NCBI GenBank assembly: GCA_903839535.1
Contig: CAIMCT010000552.1
Location: 1-40,978, forward strand
Length of the DNA: 40,978 nucleotides
Source: an uncultured Desulfobacteraceae bacterium
Lineage (GTDB): Bacteria > Desulfobacterota > Desulfobacteria > Desulfobacterales > Desulfatirhabdiaceae
Direction: 5' to 3'
Shown here: positions 3,323 through 39,201 of the stretch, piece by piece
Layout: each line of letters opens with the position of its first letter
Numbering within the stretch: the first letter of the stretch is position 1
Program-made: the position numbers and the translations under genes
Notes under the pieces: model-generated
Told to the model about the DNA's origin: nothing
The model's input: only the letters and a program-made list of their open reading frames with translations
Database searches by the model: none

Positions 3323-3324
3323 CC

Positions 3325-15289: not shown

Positions 15290-15302
15290 AAGCTCCCCCC
15301 TT

Positions 15303-15444: not shown

Positions 15445-15526
15445 CTGTTTATGCCAGAGCAGCCGCCTCCATCGCTGACGATTATGCAGTCGCCAGTGTG
15501 GTTGGAGTTACACCCCGCGCATTCAA

Positions 15527-21934: not shown

Positions 21935-24046
21935 TTACGAATTGCCCCTCCAATCCTCCGTCAGCGCCTTGAAGGCCGCTTGAGCCGGGTCACTGTAAAA
22001 CTCGATCTGCACTTTGTCAATCACTTCATCGGGCAGGGTGGCGAAGTCTTTTCGATTTGCAGTTGGAATCATTACCCGTCTTGCCCCGGAATCCATGGCA
22101 ACGCGCAGCTTATCACCAAGACCTTCCATACGACTGAGAACACCGTGAAGACTCATTTCTCCCAAAACGACCAGTCCCGCCGCCACGGTTCTGGACAGAA
22201 TGGCAGAGACCAAACCCACGAAGAAAGCCACCCCCAGATCGTGGGCATCTTTGCCCTGCATCAAGCTGATTAACTGAATATTCACGTCACAACTGGAAAG
22301 CTCCCGATCTATCCCTATCTTTTTCGCATTAGCCTTTAGAAAATCATAAGCCATTTTAGCCGATTCACGGATATTCCTGGAAGAGGTTCCCACCAGGTTA
22401 AACTTCCCTGAACCCACACTGATATTGATCTGGATTCGATAAAGGGAATATCTTGTTTCCGCCTGATCATAACCGATGGTGAAGATATCGCCAGGCGGGA
22501 GGGGAGTATCGGGGATCAACTGGATGCTTCCCAGTTCCGGGCAACCGATGAAGTGTTCTTCCCCTGTCTTTTTGTCGATATAAGAAAAGTTGACCTTCGC
22601 GTACTCAATGCCGCCCATACGTTTAAGCTGCTCTTTGACACGTCGCCTCATTTCCAGTGCAAAGCTCACATATTCTTCAACCTCTTGGTGTGAGGGATCA
22701 TTCGCCGGATGAAGCAGCTTGACCAAGCCGGAAACTGTCTTCACGACTGCCGTCCTGTCCCGCGCTTCCAGGTGGTTGCCGAAGGTAAAATAGCGCTCAT
22801 GAATATCGGCGAAATTGAGGTTCCGCATCCCTTCGTGGAATATCTCTGCGATGTAGTCAGAGATGAAACCCAAATGATCCGTGAAATAGGCCGTCTGCAT
22901 CTTGGGAATTTCCCAGCCCGGCAGATAGCCGTGCCAGCGGTCGTGGAAAGCCATATCGTTTCGAATGGAGTCCGGCAGGGCCGAAAAGAGATGAGAGACC
23001 CGGGCAATGGATTCAACATCGCCATCAATGTTGCCGTTGAAGACGATTCCCGCATCCGCCTGGATCGTTCCTTTGTCATCACCCCGTGAAAAGGACCGTT
23101 GTTCCATGTAGCCCTTGTACATCTGCTTGTCGTTTTCTTTCTTGAAATGTGATCCCGAAACCTCATCAAAGGCGACCAGATCGTAGCGAATGACAAGACC
23201 CGGCTTGTCCTTCCGGTTCTTCCAGCCAAAGAGATCAGCCACGGAACCCTGTCCCCCGCTGAGCAGAATCACATAAGGTGATATTTCCCTGTAAACATAA
23301 GACTTCCCTGTTCCCCTCGGCCCCAGCTCAATAAGGTTGTAATTCTTCTCTACCATGGGGACCATCCTGGATAGAAAAAGCAGTTTTCTACGGGGTGTAA
23401 AATCACCGTTCGTAGGTTCGTAGCCCATTGTCCGGAGGAGAATGGCGATCCATTCATCTCTTGTGAACATTGCCCGCCCTTCGATGAATTCCTGCAAATT
23501 AGCGCTGGCAATCTGAATCGGCTGAAGACGGTTCAGAACAAAAGGTCTTGTCATCCCTTTATGTACCCGCGTTTCGTCGTAGGCAATCTCCAGATTGGCC
23601 CAGATGCCTCCGGTCAACAGGCGCTCATGCTCATAAACAAGCGCTTCCGAGATATGGACATGATCCATGCCCGCTGTGGCCAGGCTGGCCCAGTATTTAC
23701 CCCCTTCATCTTTTTCATCGAAAGAGACCATAACCAGGTCAATCAGCTTATGGCTACCCTTTTTCTTCAGATTGGATTTGATCAGTTCCCCCCGGTCGGC
23801 CCTGACGATCCGTTCGGAAATAACATCTTTGACCCGCTTGATTCCTTCTGCAATTTCAATTTCATTGGTGGTTGAACAGTACTTGCCAAGCAGATATTCA
23901 AGGACGTAAACGGGAATGTTGTCACCGACCTTGAAACGCTTGACAAGGTCCTTCCGTACTACCCGACCGGGAAAGACTTTGAAGAGTTTCTGATCCAGGG
24001 CATCAACCCAGTTTGTCTGATTTATCTGTTCTTCCTTCATAGCCAT
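21935..24046 (-). CDS. brxL: BREX system AAA+ protein BrxL with Lon-like C-terminal domain
   Basis: The 703-residue protein is the BrxL component of type 1 BREX. The order is an N-terminal domain (about 1-200), AAA+ core with Walker A GPRGTGKS at 242-249 and Walker B VAFDEVSG with Asp294-Glu295, and a C-terminal Lon-like domain (about 540-690). In BREX it acts in phage exclusion as a DNA-associated AAA+ machine. The Lon catalytic serine position appears to be Asp603 (KDAHDLG in place of DGPSAG), and the Lys motif reads EGLGDKL in place of GGLKEK, so I expect no peptidase activity. It overlaps the end of pglZ by 10 bases; an ATG at 24040 is an alternative start giving an ATGA overlap. It is the last gene of the operon. 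Confidence 0.95.
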   Translation of the reverse strand: MAMKEEQINQTNWVDALDQKLFKVFPGRVVRKDLVKRFKVGDNIPVYVLEYLLGKYCSTTNEIEIAEGIKRVKDVISERIVRADRGELIKSNLKKKGSHKLIDLVMVSFDEKDEGGKYWASLATAGMDHVHISEALVYEHERLLTGGIWANLEIAYDETRVHKGMTRPFVLNRLQPIQIASANLQEFIEGRAMFTRDEWIAILLRTMGYEPTNGDFTPRRKLLFLSRMVPMVEKNYNLIELGPRGTGKSYVYREISPYVILLSGGQGSVADLFGWKNRKDKPGLVIRYDLVAFDEVSGSHFKKENDKQMYKGYMEQRSFSRGDDKGTIQADAGIVFNGNIDGDVESIARVSHLFSALPDSIRNDMAFHDRWHGYLPGWEIPKMQTAYFTDHLGFISDYIAEIFHEGMRNLNFADIHERYFTFGNHLEARDRTAVVKTVSGLVKLLHPANDPSHQEVEEYVSFALEMRRRVKEQLKRMGGIEYAKVNFSYIDKKTGEEHFIGCPELGSIQLIPDTPLPPGDIFTIGYDQAETRYSLYRIQINISVGSGKFNLVGTSSRNIRESAKMAYDFLKANAKKIGIDRELSSCDVNIQLISLMQGKDAHDLGVAFFVGLVSAILSRTVAAGLVVLGEMSLHGVLSRMEGLGDKLRVAMDSGARRVMIPTANRKDFATLPDEVIDKVQIEFYSDPAQAAFKALTEDWRGNS

Positions 24047-26514
24047 TCATCCATATCAATTTTCAATGTTACATCAGCCGATGCTAATATCTCCTCGTTA
24101 TCGGCATCGAGAATAAACAATGTCAATTTTTGCCCATAGCGGCCTTCCGCTCCAGAAACCTTTACCAGCTTTACCTGTCGGATGTCATCTTTCGGACTGA
24201 CCGCGATATCTCCTGATTTGAAAAGGATATTTCCGGATGCTGTGTCCCGAATCTTGACGACAATCTGTCTGCCAAGATAGCTGCCGTCAATCTCACCTAA
24301 GATGTCTTTCTTTCCTCTCGTCTCCGGTTCTATTTCGACAACCGGTTCCAACGTTGTAATCTCAGCAACAGGCTTCAGGACAATACCCGTCTTTTTCGCC
24401 TTTTTCGTCCACTGAATACAAACCAGGGGGATTAGCCATTCCTGCAAAGTCGCACCTCGATGGAAAAAGCCGATGCCGCCATAGGTCCTGAAGGCGTTGA
24501 CGCTTCGGGGGGTCAGGCATTCCAGGTCGCTGCCGGCAACTCTTGTCCGAATGGCCGTCTTGTGTTTAAGATTTTTTCCTACGATGGCCCGTCTCGCCTT
24601 CCAGAGGATATCCCCATCGGGTTTTTCCATGATTTCATCGTCTCCGGTGACATAATGGAAATAACCGTGATCCGTGGTCAGAAAAATACGCATATAACCG
24701 GCATCCCTGAGCTTCCGGATGACTTGCGCATAACGTTCGAGGTAATCTCCGGTGCCGGAAAGGGCAAGCTCACCTACATGCCCCTGAGCGTCGAATTCAT
24801 CACCAAAGAGAAAAATGAGCTTCCCCACGGGCAGTTTAATGCCGTTATTGATCACATCTGTCACTGCCATGATATGGGATGGCTTCACGCCATATATGGC
24901 GTTCAACCAGCTCCGCCGAGAGACCGCAAGGGATAGATTCTGACTAAACCCTTCAGCATGAACGGCCCAGCCCTTTTCCTGATCTACGGTGACCCGCAGG
25001 CTTTTCGCGAGGATAGGCAGGGCATAGGCCATACCCAGTTCCGTCGTAGTAGGTACTGGAGCCATACATGGGCGTACAGAAGCAGCAGGTGATGTCTGGC
25101 CTTCATTAATCATCTCGGCCAGGCGTTTCCCCAGTTCGAAACGGAAAGCGTCAATCACAATGACTGCTGCTGGTTCTTTATTTTCCTCGATGCTTGCCTT
25201 CAAAGCTTCCCCGGCATAGGGCAGGTGAGTTTGCTCCGGCCAACCGGAATCATGGGCCGCGAATTCGGAGAAAGCTGTATTGGTCCGATCAAGGATGATC
25301 CAGAACGCTTTTCTGAGTATCTTCTGTACCTCACAAAGGTCTGCTTCTTCAATGGACCATTCCTGCATAAGACTATCTCCTTCAGTATCCACCTGCCATC
25401 CATGACCGACATACCAGTCAATGGCATCCTTCAGAGTGTGCCAGTTTTTCTCTACGCCTTCATTTTCCCGGAGTACCTGCGCTGCTTTTCCCAAACCCGC
25501 CAGGATATCCCAGGGCACTCTTTTTTTTGTCCATTGGCCCCAGAAGCTTTGAGCATGATGCAGATAGTTTTCTCTTTTTCGGGTAAGATAAGTAGCCAGC
25601 TCCAGGAAATCCTCAAATTTGTTGATCTGCTTTATTTCGTTTTCAAATGAGGTCTTTTCCGCCCTGTAGGAGGCGAAGGGCTCTGACAGGGTGAAGGAGC
25701 GCTCCATCATCATGGACTGAAGGTTCAGAAGGGCGTCTGCTTTTTTTGCCAGAGTCTCTAATTTCGATTGAAGCTGAATATCCCGTTGCCACTGGTCCAA
25801 AAGTTCCATCGCCCGTTTTCTGCTGTTTCCCGACGGGATGATCCAGTCCGATGTGGAGAAGCCACCCTCTCCAAGTTTGAGCGCTGCATCTGTGGCCATG
25901 AGTCGAGCCACTGCACGGATACGCCATTTATCCAGTTCGTCCAAATCCGGTGTCGGAAAGCCGAAATCAACGGTGACGCGGCGTTTGAACAGGTTTCTTT
26001 TCTCTTCGCTTATTTGATTTGCGATGGGCTTGCCCACATCCGCAAGTACGAGGAGAATCGTCCCCGCCGAAATCAGTTCATCGGGAGTAATTTTTTTCCA
26101 TCTGACGAGCGGTTCATCCAATTTTGCCAAGGCATAAGCCAGGAGGTCCTCCTTGACTTCGTCTTCCTGTGACCGTGTAATTTCCACACCGTATTCGCGC
26201 AATGCTTCCAGTAGGGAAATTTCCCTAAACGATGCCTCGCCGGCAAAAACCTGCAAATAACTGAGATACTTCTTCTTTCTCGGAAGCCAGATCACGCGGG
26301 GCCTGCGCTCTTCAACGGCTAAACGATGCCGGAGCAACAATTCGTGGCCTTCTTCCGCCCATAATTCATAAGTATCCCCACAGGTCTTCTGGAGAAGTTC
26401 TTTCCACTCTCTTGCAGGGTCGCACCAGATGATAAACGGCGCGGGTTCAACCGGTTTGGATAAAACTGATTGGATCTGTTCAAGCAGGTAATTTTTAAAA
26501 GAGCGATCTCTCAT
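24037..26514 (-). CDS. pglZ: BREX PglZ-domain protein (alkaline-phosphatase superfamily)
   Basis: This 825-residue protein is the hallmark PglZ of BREX. The central PglZ domain carries metal-site residues typical of the alkaline-phosphatase fold: Asp455 in VIVIDAFRFELGKRL and Asp615-His616 in TTDHGYFHY. The N-terminal 400 residues are mixed helical, with a DPAREW motif near residue 31, and the C-terminal 150 residues look beta-rich. PglZ is required for BREX methylation and defence; its exact reaction is not settled. The ATG at 26514 overlaps the stop of the 51-aa ORF as ATGA, and its own end overlaps brxL, so translation is tightly coupled on both sides. Confidence 0.96.
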   Translation of the reverse strand: MRDRSFKNYLLEQIQSVLSKPVEPAPFIIWCDPAREWKELLQKTCGDTYELWAEEGHELLLRHRLAVEERRPRVIWLPRKKKYLSYLQVFAGEASFREISLLEALREYGVEITRSQEDEVKEDLLAYALAKLDEPLVRWKKITPDELISAGTILLVLADVGKPIANQISEEKRNLFKRRVTVDFGFPTPDLDELDKWRIRAVARLMATDAALKLGEGGFSTSDWIIPSGNSRKRAMELLDQWQRDIQLQSKLETLAKKADALLNLQSMMMERSFTLSEPFASYRAEKTSFENEIKQINKFEDFLELATYLTRKRENYLHHAQSFWGQWTKKRVPWDILAGLGKAAQVLRENEGVEKNWHTLKDAIDWYVGHGWQVDTEGDSLMQEWSIEEADLCEVQKILRKAFWIILDRTNTAFSEFAAHDSGWPEQTHLPYAGEALKASIEENKEPAAVIVIDAFRFELGKRLAEMINEGQTSPAASVRPCMAPVPTTTELGMAYALPILAKSLRVTVDQEKGWAVHAEGFSQNLSLAVSRRSWLNAIYGVKPSHIMAVTDVINNGIKLPVGKLIFLFGDEFDAQGHVGELALSGTGDYLERYAQVIRKLRDAGYMRIFLTTDHGYFHYVTGDDEIMEKPDGDILWKARRAIVGKNLKHKTAIRTRVAGSDLECLTPRSVNAFRTYGGIGFFHRGATLQEWLIPLVCIQWTKKAKKTGIVLKPVAEITTLEPVVEIEPETRGKKDILGEIDGSYLGRQIVVKIRDTASGNILFKSGDIAVSPKDDIRQVKLVKVSGAEGRYGQKLTLFILDADNEEILASADVTLKIDMDEWL

Positions 26515-26666
26515 TTATTGATCAAATTCCTTTCCATTTTGTCAATGAATGCAAAGATATCCGGATTTCCAGAAAAACCTTCGACATGATCTGCGCCGAT
26601 GTGAACAGGACATTCAATCAGTCGGGCTTCGATCTCGTTTAAATGGCTACGAACTATTTCATTCAT
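26511..26666 (-). CDS. Small BREX-operon ORF, 51 aa, unknown
   Basis: The frame from ATG at 26666 begins MNEIVRSHLNEIEARLIECP and ends with ERNLINK. It has a textbook AGGAGG ribosome site seven bases ahead, begins three bases after the previous gene and overlaps the pglZ start as ATGA, so it is very probably translated. No membrane segment is visible; it looks helical at both ends. I do not recognise a family. It may be the partner of the 65-aa protein before it, as the second half of a toxin-antitoxin-like pair, or a shortened version of one. Confidence 0.7.
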   Translation of the reverse strand: MNEIVRSHLNEIEARLIECPVHIGADHVEGFSGNPDIFAFIDKMERNLINK

Positions 26667-26668
26667 GC

Positions 26669-26866
26669 CTATGCCTCCTGATTGAGCAGCGATAAACGCT
26701 TTTCGATGCCAGCAAGCATGTCAACGGTCGCCGACCATTCCACATAATCCATATCGTCGCCCATTGCCCCCTTCTCGTAACATGTGTAGAATTCTTCCGA
26801 GTTCAGCCCGTATTTTTCTTCCAACTCGGTTTTCTGCATTAATAAATGCTGTTTTAGTTCATCCAT
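26669..26866 (-). CDS. Small acidic BREX-operon protein, 65 aa, antitoxin-like
   Basis: The 65 residues begin MDELKQHLLMQKTELEEKYG and contain the acidic stretch GDDMDYVEWSATVDML, predicted all-helical. Small acidic helical proteins of this pattern (ELEEKYG..SEEF....GDDMDYVEW) often accompany short toxin-like proteins, so an antitoxin-like role is plausible but unproven. The ATG at 26866 is chosen because it overlaps the end of pglX-C by eight bases and has GAGG ahead; a longer upstream reading of the same frame only overlaps pglX-C coding sequence. Confidence 0.7.
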   Translation of the reverse strand: MDELKQHLLMQKTELEEKYGLNSEEFYTCYEKGAMGDDMDYVEWSATVDMLAGIEKRLSLLNQEA

Positions 26867-29606
26867 CCGAGAGGCCTCGCGTTTCAATATACTCCCACCA
26901 GCCCGGTTTGGGCAGTTTTCCTTCACGACACCAGCGCCGCTCGTCGTCGCGCCAGGCGGCTCGGTCGGCAATGGACTTCACCACATCCTTGCCTGCCAGT
27001 ACGTCCGCTGCCAATAATCCAGCCTTCTGCAATGGTGCGATATTCACCCGCACGCCGTCGTTGATATCAGGCTGGTAAAGGCTTTCCTGCCGGATGAATT
27101 CCGCGACCGTCTGCGGCGGCGGACGCTTTCCATTCAGGCTGGACAGTTGATCATACATCGACTGTTCCGCAAGCCATGATTCATAGGCAAGCGCTTCCGG
27201 CCAAGACCAGGATTCAATAGCGTACCGCACAGCTTTCCCCCGACCAGACTTTAAAGTCAATTCTTTTTGCCAGGCATTGATATCGGATTTCATGGAATTG
27301 ATTTTTCGATTCATGTCCGCCTGCTCATTGAAGTCGCCTTCTGGATGGCTGAATTGCTCTTTCAGCAATTGATGCTCTTTCTTTGCATCCCTGATTTTTT
27401 CGGAAATCGGTTTTAGTAACATGGCATCAAAAGTCTTCCACCAGACAGCACAGGCACATCTCAGGGCTTCTGTAATCATGGCATCCGATTCGGCGTAGAT
27501 CATTTCCGCCAAGTCTTGTGCTGTGGGATCGTCGTTCAGGGTTTTTTCAGGCGGCGGCTTAGGGCCAACGGCGGCGCAATGGCAATCTATATGGGTTATG
27601 GCGTTCGTGATCCAGGTAGAAAATTCCTCATGGAGGCCCGTCTTATCGGCCTGATCTCGCCAGTTCAACAAAGGACCTGCCTGAATCGCACCGCTCAGTT
27701 TTTTTAGCCACCTGGCTTTGAGGCAGAGCATGGCATCGTTGATGGCATACTGGCGAAGCTGAGGCCGGAGAGCTTCCGGCCCAAAACCCGATGCACTGAC
27801 TTCAGTCAAGACAACTTCGAAAGCCTTAAGTTCCTGGATTCGATATCGTAGAGAATCTTTCTTTTCTTTCTGTTCGTCATTAAGGTCTCCGGTTGCGTTC
27901 TCCAGGCTGCGTTGTTCCATCTCCAGACGTTTCAACAGCAAGATAACATATTGGTTTTTGAGCTTGGGCAAGATGTCGCCATCTGTTTTTTGGTAATAGA
28001 TCAGGCATTCAAAGGCAGCATCCTGTCGGGGACGGCTGGCCCATTTGCTGCTGGAAATATGCCAGGCGATGGGGCGCTTTTTGAACTGGGAGGTGTGGTG
28101 GCGAAAGAAGTCCTTCCGGACCCATTCTGCCAGAGGTTTACCCATGATGTCTTCAAAAGTGTTTTCTTCCGATGATACCCGTTCATCTCCATAGTCGGCA
28201 GCCAGACGTCCCCTGATGCGGGCATTCAATGTGGCTTCATCCGTTCCTTCCATCAGGGGAATGATTCCATCATCATCCGCCCAGGCTGGAACCTCACCTG
28301 CTTCGATCTGCCTCGGCCAACGGTGGCCCAGAAGTCTGAGAATTAAGACCGTGAAGCGGTCCTTCGTCAAACGCTGTTCCTCTGGCAGGCAGCGCCAACC
28401 ATCGTTTTCTATTCCTTCCTTGAGCATCCAGTAAACGGAAATGGGATGGACCTTCATTTTCTGGGAGAGTTCTTCGATGAATGTTTCGGCAGGAATAGGG
28501 ATGTGTGCACCGGCGATTACTTGCTCTTCATCTTCGTCTGAAGCTGCTGTATTATCTACATTTTCTGTTTCTGCATTGACACCGGGGCCTGCTTTATAAA
28601 GCAGTCTCAGTTGGTACTTCAGGTTGGCTAAATTGTCAGGACTATCATATAGTCGCTGATGTAATCTCAAGAATTCTGATAGTCCGGTAGGTAATCCAGA
28701 TATTAAAACGTTCAACGTGACATCCGGGAAGGTATCGTAATCACGCACTAACGGGAACCAAGCAGCCGGTGTGCCAGTTTCATGAAGTATAGCGAGTCTA
28801 TCACCTTCATTGAGTTCGTAAGCATCAAATAACACGCTTTCAGAAAATCCTTCAATTGTGTGCAAGGCGGCAGCAATTGGATAGTAGCAAGCTACCTCAG
28901 AATCCAGCAGAACAAAGTTTGTCGGATTACAAGCTCTCTCAAGTGGATTCTGAGCAGTAAGAGAATACTTGAGATCAATACAGATACTCTCGATATCTCC
29001 AAACAGTGACTGCGGTAAATCAACAACAGGAAGGCTTGCAAGACTGCCCAAACTGAACATAAAGGACCGTGCAACAACGCGCAATAAATATGAATTAAAT
29101 CTGGAATTCAGCATAGCAAGATAGCCATGAACTTCTTCCTTCGGGAAAATCCCCGGACCAGACTTACAGAAGGTCTCTCCCGCCCGTATTCTTCGAGCTC
29201 CTAATGCTCCTCTTGCTGCTTCCGTGTAAGTAATTCCTATCCCAAACATAAGTTGTTCGTTCCTGACATAGGAGGCACTACAACTTTTGATTCGAATCCC
29301 ATCAAGTTCCCATTCAAGAACAAATCTTTTGAATCCCTCCCATTTGCTGTAACCACCCCCTCTCGAAGCCCAATACCAACGTGTGCCTGTTGGTACCTCC
29401 CAGTTACCTCTCATAAAACGTTCGTTATTCCCTGTAGTGGATGGTTCGGCAAGGTGAGCAACATCTTGGAGGGTCTTTCCAGCCAAAACCTTAAATAACC
29501 GCTCTCGTAGCCAGTAACACAAAGGCGCTTGTGGTATGTCAAGAAAGCGCATCTGGCGCGAACGGAATACAACATTCTGCGAGCAATCGGTAACTGAAGC
29601 CTTCAT
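26859..29606 (-). CDS. pglX: BREX PglX, C-terminal half (target recognition part)
   Basis: The 915-residue product corresponds to the part of PglX that follows the methyltransferase core. It starts where intact PglX has its linker (PQAPLCYWLRERL), then shows the recognition-domain motifs TGNNERFMRGNWEV, GGGYSKWEGF, SYVRNEQLMFGIGITYTEA, GPGIFPKEEV and LLRVVARSFMFSLGSL. A long C-terminal region follows, ending DINDGVRVNIAPLQKAGLL. No SAM or NPPY motif is present, so it cannot methylate alone and must pair with the N-terminal half encoded 3.2 kb upstream. Its ATG overlaps the previous gene as ATGA, with AGGGAGG about 12 bases ahead. Together the two halves total 1599 residues. Confidence 0.9.
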   Translation of the reverse strand: MKASVTDCSQNVVFRSRQMRFLDIPQAPLCYWLRERLFKVLAGKTLQDVAHLAEPSTTGNNERFMRGNWEVPTGTRWYWASRGGGYSKWEGFKRFVLEWELDGIRIKSCSASYVRNEQLMFGIGITYTEAARGALGARRIRAGETFCKSGPGIFPKEEVHGYLAMLNSRFNSYLLRVVARSFMFSLGSLASLPVVDLPQSLFGDIESICIDLKYSLTAQNPLERACNPTNFVLLDSEVACYYPIAAALHTIEGFSESVLFDAYELNEGDRLAILHETGTPAAWFPLVRDYDTFPDVTLNVLISGLPTGLSEFLRLHQRLYDSPDNLANLKYQLRLLYKAGPGVNAETENVDNTAASDEDEEQVIAGAHIPIPAETFIEELSQKMKVHPISVYWMLKEGIENDGWRCLPEEQRLTKDRFTVLILRLLGHRWPRQIEAGEVPAWADDDGIIPLMEGTDEATLNARIRGRLAADYGDERVSSEENTFEDIMGKPLAEWVRKDFFRHHTSQFKKRPIAWHISSSKWASRPRQDAAFECLIYYQKTDGDILPKLKNQYVILLLKRLEMEQRSLENATGDLNDEQKEKKDSLRYRIQELKAFEVVLTEVSASGFGPEALRPQLRQYAINDAMLCLKARWLKKLSGAIQAGPLLNWRDQADKTGLHEEFSTWITNAITHIDCHCAAVGPKPPPEKTLNDDPTAQDLAEMIYAESDAMITEALRCACAVWWKTFDAMLLKPISEKIRDAKKEHQLLKEQFSHPEGDFNEQADMNRKINSMKSDINAWQKELTLKSGRGKAVRYAIESWSWPEALAYESWLAEQSMYDQLSSLNGKRPPPQTVAEFIRQESLYQPDINDGVRVNIAPLQKAGLLAADVLAGKDVVKSIADRAAWRDDERRWCREGKLPKPGWWEYIETRGLSDG

Positions 29607-31072
29607 CTACGTTTCACGCCTCCCTTACGTCGCAGACCCAGTCCAAACAGGTAAATATCCGGAACGTCTATACGATCGTTGGTCCGCTCGCGGAAGATGC
29701 CCAACTCCACCAGATAGTCTATGAGCTCTCTTCCTGTTTGGGCGGGCGGGTTTATGTGCCTGTTACCTTGTCCCCAGGATTGTTTCCAATTCTGCTCCAG
29801 CAGTTCCTGTAACTCGCGCCGATTCCATGGGGCCAGCCTGTCAACTATCCGCTCCCTGACCCCATGCAGCCAGGGCCATTCATTGTGGATGGCCTGAATG
29901 ACATGATCTGCCGAGACATCTTCGAGAGCCTGGCGAAGTGATGTGGGATGAAGGAGTTTGGGTGGAGTGGCGCGAGGGTTTCCACGTTCCTTCAGAGCTG
30001 CTTGCTCGAAGAGCCTTACCAATGCTCTTGGCGTGGCGCATTTGTGGCCGTCACGAAGATGATCAAGCACCCAGTTGAAGCTTTGCCCCTTGTTTGTGTT
30101 GGTGCCCATGTATTGTCCTACGGTACGTTCTATAAATGGGCGGGCATCCTCTGCTTTTTTCAGGTTCGGAATATGGCCGAATGTTTTGTGTGGTTCCTTG
30201 CTGAAGGGAATCCGAGCGCCCTTACAGTAATCGAACAACTGTTCATCAGTGTTTGCAATACGCTTAATGAGCATCGAGAAAAGATTCTGATCGCTCCAGC
30301 CAAGCTCAACCCGATTGGCGGCCAGTTTGGCCAGGTCCGCCCCCCCAATTCCCGCGTGGCGCCGGAACAGATCCTTTCGCAGGAATATCTTGGCCCGGAG
30401 TCTCTGCCATCGCCTTGCATAACTGGACCAGAATGCAACGAGCCCCTGAATGGCCTTGGCCATTGCTTCCCAATCGAAACCACCCAAAGTATCCAATTCG
30501 TCATAGCCGACAAACAGCCACTGATCCGCATCCTGGAGTTTCTGATCCAACAGGTCCAGAGCAAGTAATGGCTCATTTCCCGAATTTGCGAATGCATCGA
30601 GTACTTGATCCGGTGCGCCTCCGGGCAAATCAAGAAATTTCAGCTTTCCGGGATCGCTTATCTCGTCTTTAAGAACCCGTATGAGGTATGCGAACCAAAG
30701 ATCCACAGCCTGATCCGGTGTCTTCAGAGCGTTCGTCAGGCCTCGAGAATCAGCAAACTGCGCACCTATAGGGTATCCTGGTATCAACTTGATGAGATCA
30801 GCGTTTTTATAGGGTAATCGCAACTCGGGAGCAAAAGGTGCCAACGCAGACAACAGTCTGTTTTTGAAAACCGCATTGAAAAGAGCAGATTTGCCTGTTC
30901 CTCTCTCTCCCACCACAAGCATCACATCGGGATCGAAGGCACGAAGGTGCTGTCTGATAGGATAATACCGACATGCGAAAGACTCCCCAGGTTCCGATTC
31001 TGCCTGGCCGTAACCAAGGTTCGAAAGAAAATCCAGGAGAGTCTTCTGCGTGTCTTTTCTGAATTTACTCAT
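29603..31072 (-). CDS. STAND/KAP-like P-loop ATPase nested in split pglX
   Basis: The 489-residue protein has Walker A GERGTGKS at 55-62, Walker B LFVGYDELD with Asp191-Glu192, and a downstream arginine-rich segment RAKIFLRKDLF (about 230-240) that resembles the sensor region of STAND-type NTPases. The last 150 residues look like a helical or winged-helix bundle. Such ATPases often act as signal-dependent switches in bacterial conflict systems. It follows the MinD-like ATPase with an ATGA overlap and AGAGGTGA ribosome site, and overlaps pglX-C in the same way. I cannot assign a named family with certainty. With the HEPN and MinD-like proteins it forms the module in the pglX cut. Confidence 0.75.
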   Translation of the reverse strand: MSKFRKDTQKTLLDFLSNLGYGQAESEPGESFACRYYPIRQHLRAFDPDVMLVVGERGTGKSALFNAVFKNRLLSALAPFAPELRLPYKNADLIKLIPGYPIGAQFADSRGLTNALKTPDQAVDLWFAYLIRVLKDEISDPGKLKFLDLPGGAPDQVLDAFANSGNEPLLALDLLDQKLQDADQWLFVGYDELDTLGGFDWEAMAKAIQGLVAFWSSYARRWQRLRAKIFLRKDLFRRHAGIGGADLAKLAANRVELGWSDQNLFSMLIKRIANTDEQLFDYCKGARIPFSKEPHKTFGHIPNLKKAEDARPFIERTVGQYMGTNTNKGQSFNWVLDHLRDGHKCATPRALVRLFEQAALKERGNPRATPPKLLHPTSLRQALEDVSADHVIQAIHNEWPWLHGVRERIVDRLAPWNRRELQELLEQNWKQSWGQGNRHINPPAQTGRELIDYLVELGIFRERTNDRIDVPDIYLFGLGLRRKGGVKRR

Positions 31073-32391
31073 TGCTTGTCACCTCTGAACCGGTTGAGAA
31101 TACGGTTGGCAAGACTCTGGTAGTCCGGCGATTCCACAATCGTTCCTGCCACTTCATCGATATTGCGAAAATCAGACAAAACTTCGTCGTAGCGAATTGG
31201 GACCGGAACATGCGGTGCATCACTGCTTTCAATATCTTCAATACTCCAGAAATTATCCAGGCCGGACTCTGCATAGTAAAGCTCCGTGAATTCATCACGG
31301 GCTCTGTCTGCAAATCTTTGAGTTGCTTGCTTATTCAGTTCGGGTGCTCTTGCAACCATCGCCTGAACCATAATGCAGTCGCCTTGCTGCTTGTCTGCCC
31401 GGACCCGCTGAGCACCCAGACGCTCGATAATCAGCCTCAAGCCACGCCAACTCTGCTCGGAAGAGGTACCAAACAGCACATGCAAATGGGCGAAACCACC
31501 CAAAACCATGCCGGCAGTCTCGGCGAGTCCAGCGCGGAGATCCACTAAAAGCCAATGAGGGCGAAGTTGCGTGCGCACATCCTGGAGGAGCATGAAAAAA
31601 GGATGCTTTTGTTTGTCTTCAGGCCTCGGCGGTTCGAAATCCAGGCGAGCCAGCTTACCAAGGTATTCGCTGTCGACGCGTCCTGATGGAATCACCATAA
31701 TTTCCCCTTTTCCCGTCACCTTTTCACGGCGGCAGGCATGGTAGTAATCCCGAAAATCTACCGGCCCAATAGGTTGTTCGAGCAAATAATCCGCTACACC
31801 CCATCTCGCCGTTGTTCCTTCCTCGTCGGCGGCCAGCAAAGTGCCTATACCGGGGGCATCGAGGTCCGAATCAATGACAGCCACTCTTTCGCCCTTTCGC
31901 GCCCGATGAATCGCAAAGGCAGCCAATGCGGTGGATCGGCCGACACCACCCTTGAAGGAATAAAAAACCACAATAGGAGGCTGCTTGGTACTCGGACGAA
32001 CCGGCTTTTCCCAGGGAGGCTGATCCATTGGAGAAAACCATGCACCGCGTGACCGGTAGCGATCCAGAATGCGCAATCGGGATTCATCCGGATGTGGTTT
32101 GCTTTCCTTCCATGTGTTGTCATATACAAACTTGTCAGTATCCGACACTTCCTTACTCACAGTCCAGATGTCATCTGTCCAGATACCCTGGACCTCTTCA
32201 CCCAGTTGCTTCCGGATGTCGTCGATCAAGTCTTGATGAGCGCCTCCAGGCCATACCACAAGGCGAAGTTTGCCATAGATATCTTCTATCAGTACCATTT
32301 TGCAATCAGGAGGAGCATTTCTCAAAGCAGTAATCAAAAGCATTACCGCCGAATGGCGTGCTTCATCCAAATGCTTGAAATTTATTGTCAT
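31069..32391 (-). CDS. KGGVGR-type MinD/ParA-like ATPase nested in split pglX
   Basis: The 440-residue protein has an N-terminal domain of about 135 residues (starting MTINFKHLDEARHSAVMLLI) joined to a deviant-Walker ATPase: VVFYSFKGGVGRSTALA with KGGVGRS at 147-153, then VAVIDSDLDAPGIGTLL (the Asp of the switch region) and LLVDLRAGLAETAG. The Lys of KGGVG and the replacement of GKS/T by GRS mark the KGGVGR variant seen in bacterial defence neighbourhoods. It probably dimerises on ATP and relays a signal to the neighbouring ATPase and HEPN protein. The ATG at 32391 overlaps the HEPN stop as ATGA and has GAGGT upstream; a longer reading from 32424 runs inside the HEPN gene. Confidence 0.85.
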   Translation of the reverse strand: MTINFKHLDEARHSAVMLLITALRNAPPDCKMVLIEDIYGKLRLVVWPGGAHQDLIDDIRKQLGEEVQGIWTDDIWTVSKEVSDTDKFVYDNTWKESKPHPDESRLRILDRYRSRGAWFSPMDQPPWEKPVRPSTKQPPIVVFYSFKGGVGRSTALAAFAIHRARKGERVAVIDSDLDAPGIGTLLAADEEGTTARWGVADYLLEQPIGPVDFRDYYHACRREKVTGKGEIMVIPSGRVDSEYLGKLARLDFEPPRPEDKQKHPFFMLLQDVRTQLRPHWLLVDLRAGLAETAGMVLGGFAHLHVLFGTSSEQSWRGLRLIIERLGAQRVRADKQQGDCIMVQAMVARAPELNKQATQRFADRARDEFTELYYAESGLDNFWSIEDIESSDAPHVPVPIRYDEVLSDFRNIDEVAGTIVESPDYQSLANRILNRFRGDKQ

Positions 32392-32834
32392 AGCGTTACC
32401 TCGCCATCTTTGATAAGGCCCCAAAGCACGTGCTCATACAGACGTTTGGCTTCCGCCACCCAGTCCGAAGCAGTTGTTTTCGGAATGGTTCCTTCACAAT
32501 GGTACCGAAGGGTTTCTTTCCATCCCGCAGGGGGATTGCCGTATGGAAGCCTTGTGACTGAAGAACCCAAAGGAAAATACCGTGCCGTTCTGGAAGACGG
32601 CATAGTTGCCAGCCTTTGCGCATCCACACTTAATTTATTGATGTCGTGAATCATGGGCACTCTGGAAGGCTGGTTAACCTGAATAATGGTTTTGAGAATA
32701 CATTCCACTGCATATCCCGCCAGATAAGCTGCGCCATCATAGCGGCGCCTGTTCATGAGGGCTCGTGCATCCGTGTAGTGTTTTCTTGCTGCATCGGGAT
32801 AGTCCTCGCCTGATAATTGCCGCATGTTCGACAT
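32388..32834 (-). CDS. HEPN-domain protein nested in split pglX
   Basis: This 148-residue all-helical protein matches the HEPN type with the motif RRRYDGAAYLAGYAVECILK near residues 29-48 and SDWVAEAKRLYEHV near the end. HEPN proteins are often RNases or nucleotidyltransferase-associated toxins; a clear catalytic R-x4-6-H motif is not evident here, so it may be a structural or signalling variant. The ATG at 32834 is chosen because it shares one base with the pglX-N stop (TGATG) and has AAGGAG nine bases ahead. It is the first gene of the three-gene insert. Confidence 0.85.
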   Translation of the reverse strand: MSNMRQLSGEDYPDAARKHYTDARALMNRRRYDGAAYLAGYAVECILKTIIQVNQPSRVPMIHDINKLSVDAQRLATMPSSRTARYFPLGSSVTRLPYGNPPAGWKETLRYHCEGTIPKTTASDWVAEAKRLYEHVLWGLIKDGEVTL

Positions 32835-34888
32835 CAATTGCCGCTCCTTGAGCCATTTTCGTTATAGATGGAATTGAGCGCCTGACGCAATAGTCTATCT
32901 TTCTCCTCCGGGCTCTTCGGTCCGATAAGGCGAAAGGCGGTCAGGCGGTGATCATTAGTCGGGACTTCCTTGGATAGAGTGAAGAGAACGATATTGACTA
33001 CCTCACCGGAGATTTCCCCGAAAGCGCCCGGGCCAAGATGAGCCAGAGTCTCGATTGTTGTCTCCCTGAGGACACCCTTGAAGTCTGTAGTTTTTTTTAG
33101 CTTCTCCTTATCGAGAGAGCGGAGATCGGCGAAGGAACGGAGGAACATCCAGGATTGCTGTGTGACCATCGCTACCCGTCCTATCTCTGGTCGAGCCAGC
33201 TCCAGGCAGCGAAGGATGAAAGCTGCGTAGAGATCGCGCTTCCCGGAGGTGAAGTGTTTTTCTACATATTGCTTCACCACGGGTCCCATGTTCTTAGAGC
33301 CCATATAGGGCGGGTTCGTAGCTACCACGTCATAGCGTCGGGACAGAAAATCGAAAAGGGACAAGCCTTTTCCTGCCGTTTCGCCGAAAAAACGTGAGGA
33401 GAAATCCGCGGAAGCAAATTCTTCCTTGAAATGGTCACCCAGTCGGGTCAATAGTCCGGATTTCCATTCTTTATATGACATAATGCCCAAAGGCAGTGAT
33501 GTCTGCTCCGGTTTTTCCTGTTTTGCAAAGAGTGACTTCTGTTTGGGCGGTCCGGACTTTTCCTCATCAACGAGGGCCTTCAGGGATCGGAATTCCTTTT
33601 CTACAGGCTCTTCGATTTGGAGGAGTGCGCCCAGTTCGTCGGCGTGTCTTAAACTCGCAAAGATCATCTGGAGGGTGGACTTGAAAGGTTTGTCTTCCGG
33701 ATGTTTGTCAAGGAAAGCCGAGAGATGATCCATGTTAGCGCCGGCATGGATATTAGTTGCCGCCAGATTGATGCGCGTCGGTCTGAATGCCCCATCCTTT
33801 TCCTTTGCCTTCATGTACAGGGCGCAGGCGGCAATTTGAATGGCTCGTTCATCAATATCGATCCCAAAAAGATTTTGGCTCAGGATCGCCTCGCATATAT
33901 CTCCGGGCATCTTCAGCTTCCCTTCTTCCAGATACATTGCGTAGAGAAGATCAAAAGCCATGAGGAGAAAATGACCGGAACCGACGCAAGGGTCAAGAAA
34001 AGAAATCGATTTTAGCGATTTTTTCTTCATCTGCGCCCGGTCGGCATCACGGACGTAGTATTCCCAGGATTCGCAGAGACGGGATTCTGGATACATAGCC
34101 ATCCAGAGGGCACCCAAGGAATTCTGAACGAGAAATTTGACCATGTAGGGCTCAGTGTACAACTGGGTGGCGGGAATGATATCGGCCTTCTCGATCTTTG
34201 CGCCCTTGACGGTGCGGATATTTGCAAACACCCGGTCCTTTTCTTCGGTGTTCCAGTATTGATAGGCCCAACCAAGGGTATCCGGTGCGGTGAATATTTC
34301 ATCAGCAGCGGACAGCAACTGAATGCATTTTTTCAGGGCCGCCACGCCAGGTTTCAGGGCGATTACTGGTTCATCTAGGCTGAAAAGTAGGGGGAGTTCC
34401 TCCGCCCGCTCTACAAACTCAGCAGTAAGCGCGGCATAGAGGCCATCGTCTTCTCCGGCGCAGATCTCAGGGTTTTGCCTGGTCAGACGATGATGCTTCA
34501 GGGAGCGGCCACCATAATTGTCCTTCTGGATGATGATCTCGTCGATCAGTGTCCGAGCTTCCATACACCGCAGGGCGATGAGCCGGTTGACCCAGGTATA
34601 GGCTGACTCCTGAAGAAACTCTCCTATTGCATCTTCCCGTGTGCGTCCCGATTGCAGGGAAGATTGGATAAAAGCGTCCACAATCAGCCTGGTGCGTCGA
34701 TCGTCTTCGCATAGATGGGCAAGCTGTTCGAGTGGCAGGGCTTCACGATTCTTACGAACACCCAGGGCAGCCAGACGCTCCTCCAAATCTCCAGGTTGCC
34801 AGATGCCTGTAATGTCATAGCGGCCTTCCAGGATATGACGGAGGGTGAGGACAATGGATTTGAGTTGGGACTTGTATTGAGTTTCCAT
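32834..34888 (-). CDS. pglX: BREX PglX, N-terminal half (adenine methyltransferase core)
   Basis: The 684-residue product holds the complete catalytic core of the BREX adenine-specific DNA methyltransferase: SAM-binding motif I FLDPCVGSGHFL at about 297-308 and catalytic motif IV NPPY at 525-528 (VVATNPPYMGSKNMG). It stops after GEVVNIVLFTL and a charged tail, exactly where intact PglX continues into the recognition domain; that part is encoded separately at 26859-29606. BREX uses PglX to mark self DNA. Its start lies three bases after the DUF5615 stop. The end overlaps the HEPN start. Whether the two halves assemble into one enzyme is inference, but both keep their signature residues. Confidence 0.93.
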   Translation of the reverse strand: METQYKSQLKSIVLTLRHILEGRYDITGIWQPGDLEERLAALGVRKNREALPLEQLAHLCEDDRRTRLIVDAFIQSSLQSGRTREDAIGEFLQESAYTWVNRLIALRCMEARTLIDEIIIQKDNYGGRSLKHHRLTRQNPEICAGEDDGLYAALTAEFVERAEELPLLFSLDEPVIALKPGVAALKKCIQLLSAADEIFTAPDTLGWAYQYWNTEEKDRVFANIRTVKGAKIEKADIIPATQLYTEPYMVKFLVQNSLGALWMAMYPESRLCESWEYYVRDADRAQMKKKSLKSISFLDPCVGSGHFLLMAFDLLYAMYLEEGKLKMPGDICEAILSQNLFGIDIDERAIQIAACALYMKAKEKDGAFRPTRINLAATNIHAGANMDHLSAFLDKHPEDKPFKSTLQMIFASLRHADELGALLQIEEPVEKEFRSLKALVDEEKSGPPKQKSLFAKQEKPEQTSLPLGIMSYKEWKSGLLTRLGDHFKEEFASADFSSRFFGETAGKGLSLFDFLSRRYDVVATNPPYMGSKNMGPVVKQYVEKHFTSGKRDLYAAFILRCLELARPEIGRVAMVTQQSWMFLRSFADLRSLDKEKLKKTTDFKGVLRETTIETLAHLGPGAFGEISGEVVNIVLFTLSKEVPTNDHRLTAFRLIGPKSPEEKDRLLRQALNSIYNENGSRSGN

Positions 34889-34891
34889 CTC

Positions 34892-35260
34892 TCATCGCCT
34901 GAAAGGAAGAATGCGCGCCCGCGAACGATAGGGATCAATCGTGATGAGGGCACCCTGTAGAAGTTCCTCTTCGAATTGCCTGATCGCGTTCAAGACCAAA
35001 GATCCAATCTCTTCCGGAACAATATTTTGAGTGCGAACCTGAATGACGCTTGGCCCGGCAGCATCGGTGGACGCAAGCAATGCGCCGAAATCCAGAGCAT
35101 GGGTGAAGACGATGAAACCATGTTCCTGAGCGTAGGCCATTATATCGCTGTCTTTGGCGGTGGGTGCGCCAACGTCGGACCAATGGATACATTCAACACT
35201 TTCAGCAGTCAAGAATTGCACCCATCTGGGTGGTAAATTCATGTCGAGCAACAGTTTCAT
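34892..35260 (-). CDS. DUF5615 PIN-like protein, predicted toxin
   Basis: The 122-residue protein begins MKLLLDMNLPPRWVQFL and continues with DVGAPTAKDSDIMAYA and FIVFTHALDFGALLA, the conserved Asp-containing stretches of DUF5615/Mut7-C PIN-like proteins. These are predicted metal-dependent RNases and normally pair with a DUF433 protein, which is encoded directly upstream with an ATGA overlap. The pair sits between brxC and pglX in the same transcript. It may stabilise the BREX operon or respond to its disruption; that role is inference. Confidence 0.88.
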   Translation of the reverse strand: MKLLLDMNLPPRWVQFLTAESVECIHWSDVGAPTAKDSDIMAYAQEHGFIVFTHALDFGALLASTDAAGPSVIQVRTQNIVPEEIGSLVLNAIRQFEEELLQGALITIDPYRSRARILPFRR

Positions 35261-35487
35261 CCGGTCGCTACCTCAAGTTCTCTCTCTTCTGATCGCCATG
35301 CTGAGTATGAAAGGGCTTCCATGATATCATTTCGCTCCAGATAAGGATATTCCGCAAGAACATCCTCTATTGTCTTACCACAGGCAATCAGGCCGACAAT
35401 GGTTCCTACGGTTACCCGTATGCCCCTGATGCAGGGTTTTCCTCCCATTACCATGGGATCTATCGTAATCCTTTTCAATGGTTCCAT
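35257..35487 (-). CDS. DUF433 protein, predicted antitoxin
   Basis: The 76-residue product matches DUF433: RITIDPMVMGGKPCIRGIRV followed by a helical segment TVGTIVGLIACGKTIEDVLAEYPYL. Members are antitoxin-like partners of DUF5615. The ATG has a GGAGG ribosome site five bases ahead. It starts 66 bases after brxC on the same strand, the largest gap in the operon after the promoter, so a separate weak promoter is possible. Confidence 0.88.
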   Translation of the reverse strand: MEPLKRITIDPMVMGGKPCIRGIRVTVGTIVGLIACGKTIEDVLAEYPYLERNDIMEALSYSAWRSEERELEVATG

Positions 35488-35553: not shown

Positions 35554-38500
35554 TCAAAATAGTTCCACCTCATCACCCTGATCCAGGGCAGCGTTTATTT
35601 GTGCATCCAGATCTTTTTTCAAATCATTCCATTCAGTTATGTTTTTTATTCTTCTGGGGGAGACAATCAACTTGATCTTCCTGACTTGTTTTTTAGCGAC
35701 ACCACCACACCCTCCCGTATCCTTGCTTTTAATAAGCCGCTCCAGGCGCGCACTCAAATCGTTGACTCGGCCTGAAATTTTGTCCGGGAGCAGAGCGATC
35801 TTGATCAGATCGGATTCTTCTTCAATTTCTGTGGTCAAATTCTGACATGCTTTTTCAAATGGGGCGATTTCTTCCGTAGTCAGCAGTTTCGTTGTATTAT
35901 CTTGAACAATGCGGTTTTTAAGGGGAAGGACAGATTCAGTCGCTGTTTGCCGCCATATTCGTTTCAACGCTTCCACCTCAGTCAGGACATGAGCCCTGTT
36001 GTCCTGGAGCTTCCGCCATGTATCTTTTTTATGAATTAATGCATCATTACAAGCCGTTACATAATTATTGAGAAAATGAAGAATAATATTCTCTTCGGGT
36101 ATTTTGTACTTGATGCTATGTAGAGTGCTATAAAGCTCTCTGATTCCCTTGAAAAGTTCAGCGTTCTTGCCGTAAAATGCGTGGACCGCAAGGACTTCAT
36201 TTAGTTCATCTTTTATGGCTGGCGATTTCGCCTCCCACTCCTTGACGTGATGTACAGGGTTGGTGAGACTCAGGAGAGTTTCTATGGTTTCCATGCCTGC
36301 CGTGAAGAATTCCGGCAGCGGAAAGTTTGCGGCTTTTGCCCAGATATGTGCATCATCGCCTTTCTTTTTTATATCTGTCAGATATTTTACTGAAGCAGCG
36401 GCAATGTCCGACGGAGTTTCGTCTATCTTGCGATTCCCCGTCAGCTCGATCAAAAGAGTCCGGACAGTGATTAAAACGGTCGTATCCACATCCGTCTCTT
36501 CCAGAATTACTTCCGCCTTACTGAAAGCTTTGCTGTTACGCATTGTGGCAATCAGCTCTGTATCGGCGGAATTGGTATATATCTTTTTGCTTACGGAAAT
36601 CTTGATCATACCCGCTCTGACTGCCGCCGCGATACCGATGCGAACGGCATTGGGGTCCCAACCATAGGGCGGAGTTTCGAAATGATTGAGTATTTCCTGC
36701 CCGAGAGTTCGCTGCTTTTTATTCAGACGGTTTATCAGATAGATGCGAATTTCATCGATCAGCGGAATGTGAGCGTCCAACTGGCCGGTCTTGTCGTAAA
36801 GCTTCAGGGACTTCACATCCGAAGACAGATTCTTGGCCCCGGCCAGTACATCGGAGATATCCTGTTGTTCCGACTTTATCCGGATGGTCATTTTGTCGTA
36901 TTTTGGATAAAGTGTTCCGAAGTAATGGCTTATTTCACTACGGATTGCATCACCCGGCTTTTGCGATTTGCTAACAATAGCGTGGCTACCGCCCCGGAAG
37001 ATCAAGTGTCCCTGCTTCAATCCCAGACGGATAGATACTTCAACGGCATCCTTCAATTTTGGCAAATCGACAGTGGCCTTGCTGTTGGCCAGTTCACGTT
37101 CTGTGACTGATTTATGCGAGTCACCCTGCCACTTGTCTAACACTTCTTTCATGGCGACATACCGGTCCAGTTGCTCGCTGAATTGTGCAACCCGGTCGCA
37201 GAAGACAAAGATCGTCTGGTTATTCTCCGGTTTGAGGCTTTCATTTTCGTAATCGCCGATGGTTTTTCCTGAATAATGACCAAAAGAAGAAATGATCCGG
37301 ATATCCACATGACCATTTTTTACCAACATCTTGTTGTCAAAAAACAGGCGTGTCTGAAAATCATGTCCCTTGAATGGAATGGTTTCAAATCCCAGAATAT
37401 GGGTGCTGATAAGCTTGTTCAATCCTTCTTCGCGATCTTGAAATTTCAATTGAGCGGTGACGGTGCCCACCGCTTCTTCAAAAGTGCGCCTTTCTCCCGT
37501 CAGAAACTCCCATTCATCGCCGATTCTTGCAACAATCTTGGCCTTTTTTAATTTTTCGAGTTCAGCTTCAATCATTGGTTGCAAGGAAGCCAGGTCCTGC
37601 GAGGTGTCGGAGACCAGAAGTCTGGCGAGATTAGCCGCTGTCTTGGGGATGTAGGCCAAATCACCGATCAAAAAAAGAACTTCCACGAGCTTGGGGGTAA
37701 GATCGGTAGCGGCAGGCACAACGCTTGGGATTTTCGATATTTCACGGCGGATGTCAGCCGAAATTTCCCCTTCCTGAAGCAGATTATAGTAGATTTCATC
37801 GAAGGATACTGTTTCCCCCACGGCCGCCTGAAGGTAATTTCTGCGACCGGCGCGGATAACATCCTGGGTGATGGCCAACAAAGTGCGTGTGGATCCAGAC
37901 AGCGAATCGGATCGTCCCCCCTTGGAGCGAAGGGCTTTCACAATTTCAGGGATCAGGTGAATCTGATAGGGAAAAAAAGGATAAAATTTTACGAAGTTCT
38001 CGCTGCTACATCGTGGAAGGTTCTGAGAAACATTGGCCAGCTCCCCCATACCACAGATAACGCCGGCGTTGTCCTGGTAAATCGCTTCCACATTCTTCTT
38101 CCCAGTCAGCGTTTTCTTGAAAATCCGGTCTTCCAGAACCAATTCGATGTTTTCCGTGGTCAACCCGAATTTAAAGCGAAAACGAGTTTCTATTTTCTTG
38201 AAGTCGCTGTCAAGTGCATGAGCGTTCTTATAGACAGACCCCATATCCTCATGGGTGGTAACCAGTATCCATATCTTTCCCTGTCCGACAATGGCCGCCT
38301 CTTCAACCAATGCCTGCAACTGGGCCAGCCGTCCATGCTGATCCTCTATCCATTGCCCGGATTCGTCCAGTACAAAAAAAATCCGGACGGGCTTTCCGGT
38401 TTCTTTCTCCTGCGTTTTAACGTCGGTAAGAATTGTTTTAATCAGGAATTCAATGTTGAATATCTCCCCCTTTTCGGCGTTGAGCAGAGCTTCAGCAACC

Positions 38501-39177
38501 TCCTCCGGCATTGAAAATAGCTCCGGGGCAATGTCACATACAGCCCCATAGATGTGCTTCCTGTAGAAATTCGGATTGGCCTGTATATTTACCCATGATT
38601 TCCCCGACCTTTTTTCCACCCCCTGGTGAAAGGCAGGCAGTTTATGGAGTTTATCCAGCTCCGCCTCAATGACTTTGGCAAAGATATAATTGCTGCTGTA
38701 TCCCTTGGACAGATAATACTGAGAAAGGAGAAGCGAGGGCAGGAGAGTGCTGCGGCTGTCTGTCAGGGTATTGAGATTGAAGGCCAGAATGGTCGTCGCG
38801 CAGTTGTTCAGAAGGCTTAAGGAACGATCGATGGATTTCTTTCTTTCCGCTGACTCGGGGACTCGGGCGTTAAATCGCTTGGTCGCCGGAATACCGTCCA
38901 AGGTGCGATTTGCCGTAACCTGAGCCAGCATCTTAGCCAGGTGAGACTTGCCGGAGCCGAAATATCCGGATATCCAAACGCCGATTTCCGTGGTCTGCTT
39001 GCGGATCGTGTCGGTATAGTGATCGAAAAAAGAATCCGCATACTCTTCAATATGGGGAGTGACAACAAAACTTCCTATTTCCGAGGCGAGTTTCTTTTCG
39101 TCCTGAACTTCCCCCACCTTGATGACAGGTTCGATTTTCTCTGTAATCCGAGTCTCAAAAATTTCACCGATTTGCAT
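35554..39177 (-). CDS. brxC: BREX ATPase BrxC
   Basis: The protein has 1207 residues from the ATG at 39177 (MQIGEIFETRITEKIEPVIK), as expected for BrxC. The Walker A motif GYFGSGKSHLAK begins near residue 71, and the large AAA-type core has a Walker B-like FFVLDESGQW around residue 270. BrxC is a conserved ATPase needed for BREX defence and, in studied systems, for methylation. GGAGAG stands eight bases before this start; a start six codons further upstream has none. It begins 24 bases after the brxB stop. Confidence 0.95.
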   Translation of the reverse strand: MQIGEIFETRITEKIEPVIKVGEVQDEKKLASEIGSFVVTPHIEEYADSFFDHYTDTIRKQTTEIGVWISGYFGSGKSHLAKMLAQVTANRTLDGIPATKRFNARVPESAERKKSIDRSLSLLNNCATTILAFNLNTLTDSRSTLLPSLLLSQYYLSKGYSSNYIFAKVIEAELDKLHKLPAFHQGVEKRSGKSWVNIQANPNFYRKHIYGAVCDIAPELFSMPEEVAEALLNAEKGEIFNIEFLIKTILTDVKTQEKETGKPVRIFFVLDESGQWIEDQHGRLAQLQALVEEAAIVGQGKIWILVTTHEDMGSVYKNAHALDSDFKKIETRFRFKFGLTTENIELVLEDRIFKKTLTGKKNVEAIYQDNAGVICGMGELANVSQNLPRCSSENFVKFYPFFPYQIHLIPEIVKALRSKGGRSDSLSGSTRTLLAITQDVIRAGRRNYLQAAVGETVSFDEIYYNLLQEGEISADIRREISKIPSVVPAATDLTPKLVEVLFLIGDLAYIPKTAANLARLLVSDTSQDLASLQPMIEAELEKLKKAKIVARIGDEWEFLTGERRTFEEAVGTVTAQLKFQDREEGLNKLISTHILGFETIPFKGHDFQTRLFFDNKMLVKNGHVDIRIISSFGHYSGKTIGDYENESLKPENNQTIFVFCDRVAQFSEQLDRYVAMKEVLDKWQGDSHKSVTERELANSKATVDLPKLKDAVEVSIRLGLKQGHLIFRGGSHAIVSKSQKPGDAIRSEISHYFGTLYPKYDKMTIRIKSEQQDISDVLAGAKNLSSDVKSLKLYDKTGQLDAHIPLIDEIRIYLINRLNKKQRTLGQEILNHFETPPYGWDPNAVRIGIAAAVRAGMIKISVSKKIYTNSADTELIATMRNSKAFSKAEVILEETDVDTTVLITVRTLLIELTGNRKIDETPSDIAAASVKYLTDIKKKGDDAHIWAKAANFPLPEFFTAGMETIETLLSLTNPVHHVKEWEAKSPAIKDELNEVLAVHAFYGKNAELFKGIRELYSTLHSIKYKIPEENIILHFLNNYVTACNDALIHKKDTWRKLQDNRAHVLTEVEALKRIWRQTATESVLPLKNRIVQDNTTKLLTTEEIAPFEKACQNLTTEIEEESDLIKIALLPDKISGRVNDLSARLERLIKSKDTGGCGGVAKKQVRKIKLIVSPRRIKNITEWNDLKKDLDAQINAALDQGDEVELF

Positions 39178-39201
39178 AATTAAATCTCTCCACATGATGC
39201 G

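Follow-up and report, generated by a model that had tools for sequence, protein, structure and literature searches.

A type 1 BREX operon in the draft genome of an uncultured Desulfobacteraceae bacterium (G000) encodes its methyltransferase, PglX, as two chains whose genes enclose a three-gene cassette matching the candidate defence system PDC-M28. We consider it probable that this is a working type 1 BREX with a two-chain PglX, and that the gene boundary within pglX repeatedly serves as a place where coupled defence cargo, here PDC-M28, can land.

A type 1 BREX operon with pglX in two frames

The window, that is, the whole stretch of DNA analysed (40,978 nucleotides), is one entire contig (C552) of a 580-contig draft genome. 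On its minus strand, from 40557 to 21935, brxA, brxB, brxC, pglX (split), pglZ and brxL are encoded together, with the gene set and order of type 1 BREX. The products comprise BrxA (258 aa; 39781–40557; PF08849, 65 bits against a cut-off of 23), BrxB (188 aa; 39202–39768; PF08747, barely above cut-off), the BrxC ATPase (1213 aa; 35554–39195; NF033441, 585 bits against a cut-off of 400), a divergent PglZ (825 aa; 24037–26514; PF08665) and the Lon-like ATPase BrxL (703 aa; 21935–24046; TIGR02653, 781 bits against a cut-off of 628). BrxC and BrxL thus exceed NCBIfam cut-offs, whereas PglZ and both PglX chains fall under theirs. No single-chain PglX scores above the BREX_1_MTaseX cut-off of 500 bits, the score being spread over two chains as 412 and 180 bits, and the operon is therefore filed as a type 1 BREX variant, not a standard member. 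Its PglX is complete in domain content but, unlike that of type 1 BREX, consists of two chains enclosing the cassette and has an extra insertion of about 230 aa in the second chain.

The two open reading frames proposed in the original prediction were confirmed: PglX-N (684 aa; 32834–34888) carries a helical N-domain and the methyltransferase domain with motif I and NPPY (residues 525–528), and PglX-C (915 aa; 26859–29606) carries the target recognition domain (TRD) and the C-terminal domain. Together they span the 1210 positions of the BREX-1 PglX model (NF033452) on either side of 641/649, PglX-N matching positions 16–641 and PglX-C matching from 649, and in alignment to solved structures PglX-N reaches residue 638 of E. 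coli BrxX while PglX-C begins at 645. The flexible hinge between the methyltransferase and recognition domains has been placed at residues 638–675 in E. coli BrxX (PMC11842806) and at 654–659 in Salmonella PglX (PMC11341690). Because the chain ends match these published hinges, the alignments put the cut at the hinge between catalytic core and recognition domain, as had been predicted, with no domain lost. PglX-C had no match in a Pfam profile search; its ADDDGI motif aligns with the BrxX metal ligands D997/D999, and its insertion, near residues 605–840 (alignment A2), is clade-specific. A structure prediction for this chain was discarded (pLDDT 55, pTM 0.34).

Between the two chains, on the same strand, lie genes for a HEPN protein (148 aa; 32388–32834), a KGGVGR deviant-Walker ParA/MinD-like ATPase (440 aa; 31069–32391) and a Sll1717-family P-loop ATPase (489 aa; 29603–31072), hereafter the third ATPase. 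From PglX-N to PglX-C the four junctions read TGATG, ATGA, ATGA and ATGA, and a Shine-Dalgarno-like sequence stands 5' of most nested-gene junctions. Start and stop codons overlap at every junction, as anticipated, but by 1, 4, 4 and 4 bases and not by the 1 to 8 given earlier, counting from ATG starts that are conserved in relatives (HEPN 32834, KGGVGR 32391); the TTG starts at 32837 and 32424 in the ORF list are mechanical, and the conserved ATG starts were preferred.

Several other features surround the operon genes. Between brxC and pglX, also on the minus strand, a 76-aa gene read from the sequence (35257–35487), which we take to be DUF433-like, is the probable antitoxin-like partner of a 122-aa DUF5615 PIN-like protein (34892–35260; PF18480). 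The interval between PglX-C and PglZ (26514–26870) holds very short ORFs, one of which was checked and had no Pfam match. Near the start of the contig, two long plus-strand genes (188–6456), the first encoding 1044 aa with an N6_N4 DNA methylase domain, are possibly a type III-like restriction system. More BREX pieces occur elsewhere in the same genome (L073 and L074): among them, BrxC lies upstream of a PglX of 907 aa in a single chain, and a PglX fragment precedes PglZ and a BrxL that occupies two frames.

The nested genes form a portable cassette

The identification of two nested products as a HEPN protein and a KGGVGR-ATPase was borne out by PF05168 and NF047398 (169 bits), and the third, described as a STAND-like ATPase, matches the Sll1717 family (NF047389), all above cut-off. 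The description of the genes as unrelated was not borne out: the three are one recurrent module, which mostly lives without a split PglX. They match the PADLOC candidate system PDC-M28 in A-B-C order (PDC-M28A, PDLC04558, 4e-15; PDC-M28B, PDLC04559, 7e-59; PDC-M28C, PDLC04561, 2e-63), and 11 trios, drawn from four phyla (Desulfobacterota, Elusimicrobia, Cyanobacteriota and Pseudomonadota), align along their full length and share conserved motifs of KGGVGRS type, G.RG.GK and D.LD. All three proteins, their order and these motifs are shared with PDC-M28, but the trio in the window is a divergent branch, its C protein scoring 213 bits against 557–676 in typical members, and it sits inside a split gene and not alone or behind a gene. 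PDC systems are defined via guilt-by-embedding and are largely unvalidated (PMC12988326). A literature search that excluded the guilt-by-embedding preprint of Payne et al. 2024 (doi 10.1101/2024.01.29.577857) returned no publication naming PDC-M28 or KGGVGR, and no experimental work on any PDC-M28 was found in the literature search.

With no BREX in the vicinity, the trio occurs in an Elusimicrobia MAG (L007; 44–49% identity to the window's trio, the closest found outside the order), on Tistrella and Enterobacter plasmids (L028 and L029) and elsewhere too. It also lies within the BREX-2 operon of a complete plasmid from Thiodictyon (L027), amid BREX remnants (L020) and, in a BREX-related system of DUF499 type (L018, 2–13093), as a typical PDC-M28 trio directly behind the DUF1156 methylase. 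In the Desulfobacteraceae relative L006, discussed below, one trio lies between the PglX halves, and a second, different one (L106, 5016–9457) lies directly 3' of a PglX C-terminal remnant belonging to another BREX. The trio therefore recurs inside or beside pglX and other BREX genes, and its presence alone, in or beside BREX and in a DUF499 system identifies it as a portable cassette, often at methylation-based defence loci. The characterization of the locus as a composite defence operon stands, its parts being BREX genes and a PDC-M28 cassette.

The cassette, using BREX expression, would most likely sense infection independently and act as its own abortive-infection unit, with HEPN as effector, the ParA/MinD-like (KGGVGR) ATPase as restraint on HEPN, as proposed for HEPN–ParA dyads, and the ORC/STAND-type ATPase as switch; we infer both the HEPN RNase action and the roles of the two ATPases. 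Pairs of HEPN and ParA-like ATPase genes have been proposed as toxin-antitoxin systems (PMC3710099), and the HEPN and ParA/Soj dyads described there (Anantharaman 2013) share with the cassette a HEPN gene coupled to a ParA-like ATPase; the cassette differs in having the third ATPase and a HEPN protein of PF05168 type, not of the MAE_18760 family. A role as back-up effector would also fit the common recruitment of HEPN, PIN and Schlafen effectors at BREX loci (PMC12839542). The HEPN protein has an Rx4H motif (R58–H63) in the window and in L006, but the Rx4-6H motif is absent or shifted in several homologues, and because it is not universal in the family the RNase action, though likely, is uncertain. 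For the third ATPase, a structure model (pLDDT 83) predicts an ORC/Cdc6-like AAA+ fold, with Foldseek matches to ORC/Cdc6, the BrxC N-terminus and RdrA whose TM-scores of 0.3–0.46 indicate fold class only, ORC/Cdc6–BrxC being a clade neighbouring STAND. The third ATPase had no relative among phage records.

Splits at the PglX hinge carry varied cargo

Another split enclosing a cassette protein was found in L082 (genome G080, same order but another family), where a BREX-1 operon encodes PglX-N of 699 aa, the third ATPase alone and PglX-C of 910 aa in contiguous genes with overlapping start and stop codons; HEPN and KGGVGR are absent though PglX is split. Identity to the window is 74% for the third ATPase, 71% for BrxC and 71% for PglX-N, and this similar divergence is consistent with joint descent of the third ATPase and BREX, HEPN and KGGVGR having been lost in the L082 lineage or gained in that of the window. 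Other loci are split at model positions 641–655, each with cargo other than the trio. In another PglX clade, L063 has a Schlafen AlbA_2 protein between contiguous halves, in a degraded BREX with the PglX N-terminal part missing, and L077/L078 has an RT UG5–nitrilase DRT between halves on contig ends joined by a shared gene, both being cut at 641–647; in L064/L065 (G388) each half sits at the end of a separate contig, and genes for HerA and a nucleotidyltransferase precede PglX-C. Every hinge-split locus comes from a draft genome, and L077/L078 and L064/L065 span contig ends. In L065 (902–3601), the PglX-C frame runs on into the Lon-like, C-terminal part of BrxL (residues 710–898), and owing to this fusion the locus is without PglZ and the BrxL ATPase.

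Single-chain PglX is the rule: in two sampled tables, frames that span the hinge number about 60 and splits about half a dozen, a count that is inexact both ways because only the two best candidates were scored per genome. The nearest unsplit relative, the sister operon L102, clusters with split operons, and the PglX-N tree requires at least four changes of the split label, a pattern most simply read as repeated, derived splitting at the hinge with cargo that varies between splits. Since the hinge-split PglX occurs with other cargo, the split is independent of the trio. A text search of the 2026 BREX survey found the word ‘split’ absent.

Some candidate splits were set aside. L060 (G120), considered as a cargo-free split, was rejected for a frameshift at the hinge; L061/L062 are cut earlier, within the methyltransferase domain and on unjoined contigs, and L079/L080 and L081 past the hinge, at contig ends or truncated, so these were not counted. 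L066–L068 and L084/L085, from another PglX subfamily with a different break, were not used, and the pglX of a Haloarcula plasmid has its break elsewhere. The BREX-2 PglX of pTs417, the closed Thiodictyon plasmid (L027, 3677–7833), likewise comes as two pieces (model 1–810 and 798–1183) separated by a 95-aa ORF; this break is not at the hinge, and the trio comes after the pieces, not inside.

That the trio monitors PglX, as was suggested from the window at the outset, is possible. In the version that we regard as unlikely, an anti-BREX protein (an Ocr-like DNA mimic) would separate or occupy the chains of the split PglX, and the ATPase pair would then free the HEPN RNase to cause abortive infection, comparable to PrrC with the type I enzyme or PARIS with Ocr. 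The trio is physically nested with coupled junctions, Ocr binds PglX chiefly through its recognition part (PMC11842806), and PARIS, an ATPase/nuclease back-up system that responds to Ocr elsewhere, is likewise embedded in the Salmonella BREX operon (PMC11341690). L082, which keeps the third ATPase alone between the halves and diverging about as the BREX genes do, is the one observation leaning towards cargo that is directly linked to PglX. However, L082 has a split PglX with HEPN and KGGVGR missing, the trio persists without nearby BREX in L007, L028 and L029, and the PARIS embedded in Salmonella BREX, which is made of other proteins and leaves pglX uninterrupted, does not respond to Ocr there. 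As the trio mostly lives without a split PglX, it did not arise as a monitor of such an enzyme. We also think it quite unlikely that the hinge of PglX serves generally as a docking socket, at which BREX lineages would repeatedly split the protein and hold interchangeable effectors (the HEPN trio, the lone ORC/STAND ATPase, AlbA_2 and the RT–nitrilase DRT) gated by chain assembly, with the methyltransferase as an anti-BREX sensor. We favour a landing site: the split would create a gene boundary inside the operon that is tolerated as an insertion point for translationally coupled cargo. The PglX hinge is a defined spot for seeking new defence systems, and split loci offer a natural setting in which to ask whether a nested back-up system responds to the condition of its host system or is a mere passenger.

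Conservation and selection in a close relative

L006, an uncultured Desulfobacteraceae MAG of the same genus that was deposited separately, has the identical five-gene order with every frame open. Neither of the two refuting results named at the outset was found, these being long reads with a continuous pglX, and homologous operons whose C-terminal half is a separate, full-length second pglX together with absence of the trio from all relatives. Identity between the window and L006 is 90% for PglX-N, 64% for PglX-C, 93–99% for the trio and 89–98% for the remaining BREX genes. Values of dN/dS (NG86) are 0.19 for PglX-N, 0.12 for HEPN, 0.06 for KGGVGR, 0.08 for the third ATPase and 0.31 for PglX-C, and both PglX chains are under purifying selection in this pair. 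Within PglX-C, identity is 97% over residues 1–30, about 40% over 31–345 and 75–93% over 346–915; strong divergence limited to the TRD stretch would be expected when specificity changes in a working enzyme.

From the hinge-exact cut without domain loss, its retention in three genomes, purifying selection and TRD diversification, we infer that PglX-N and PglX-C re-associate at the hinge into one methyltransferase; judged from these sequences, the enzyme is very probably assembled from two chains, as originally proposed. PglX would be made as an M-like chain for catalysis and an S-like chain for recognition, which meet at a natural hinge in the manner of HsdM and HsdS. Type I restriction-modification systems place catalysis and recognition on separate chains (HsdM and HsdS) and can have a PrrC-type nuclease embedded. 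The likeness, namely separate catalytic and recognition chains and an RNase-type gene within the operon, is one of layout only and is no evidence on homology: here there is no HsdR, BREX components stand instead, and PglX is MmeI/BrxX-like, not HsdM. Unassisted re-association is not guaranteed, because the N-terminal domain of Salmonella PglX, purified alone, formed no DNA complexes and its C-terminal domain was not expressible alone (PMC11341690). A separate PglX-C may accordingly need a partner or helper to fold, and it is our guess that the insertion of about 230 aa may aid folding of the separate chain. A natural, selected two-chain PglX would let BREX catalysis and recognition be separated in the laboratory; in published experiments the recognition domain was not expressible by itself (PMC11341690).

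The same comparisons make it very unlikely that the locus is a broken BREX, in which a mobile defence cassette interrupted pglX and left both halves as decaying remnants. The insertion does lie within a gene that is normally single, and some other split loci look degraded (L063 without the N-terminal part, L065 with PglX-C fused to a BrxL fragment); yet both halves are open, show purifying selection in the two genomes compared and persist in a third, from another family, and the cut removed no domain, the TRD is diversifying and the surrounding BREX gene set is full. We see only a slight chance that PglX-C acts as an exchangeable subunit for specificity, pairing with the cell's other PglX catalytic chains as well, and that the split serves specificity switching and not cargo. 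The contrast between about 40% identity in the TRD stretch and about 90% or more in the neighbours could be read in this way, as could the presence of more than one BREX in G000 and G006 and of several in the genus, but only the TRD stretch and not the whole gene diverges, the 30 residues beside the cut are nearly identical, and TRD change is also expected of a single-chain PglX. An assembly chimera or sequencing artefact is barely conceivable since, although the draft genome is in 580 contigs, of which the window is one, its junctions are identical in the separately deposited L006, the same split occurs in L082, and the start/stop pairs overlap, with Shine-Dalgarno-like sequence.

Synonymous divergence between the window and L006 is uneven along the cassette: dS is 0.05 for HEPN and 0.17 for KGGVGR, below the flanking PglX-N (0.29) and third ATPase (0.42), and these lower values suggest recent exchange of the segment 31069–32834 between both lineages. 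The DUF433/DUF5615 pair that follows BrxC in the window (34892–35487) is missing from L006, which has a PIN gene between PglX-C and PglZ (14829–15284), and in L082 a TumE toxin gene (15093–15608) stands ahead of PglZ. Small toxin-like genes therefore come and go at the gene boundaries of this operon, differing among close relatives.
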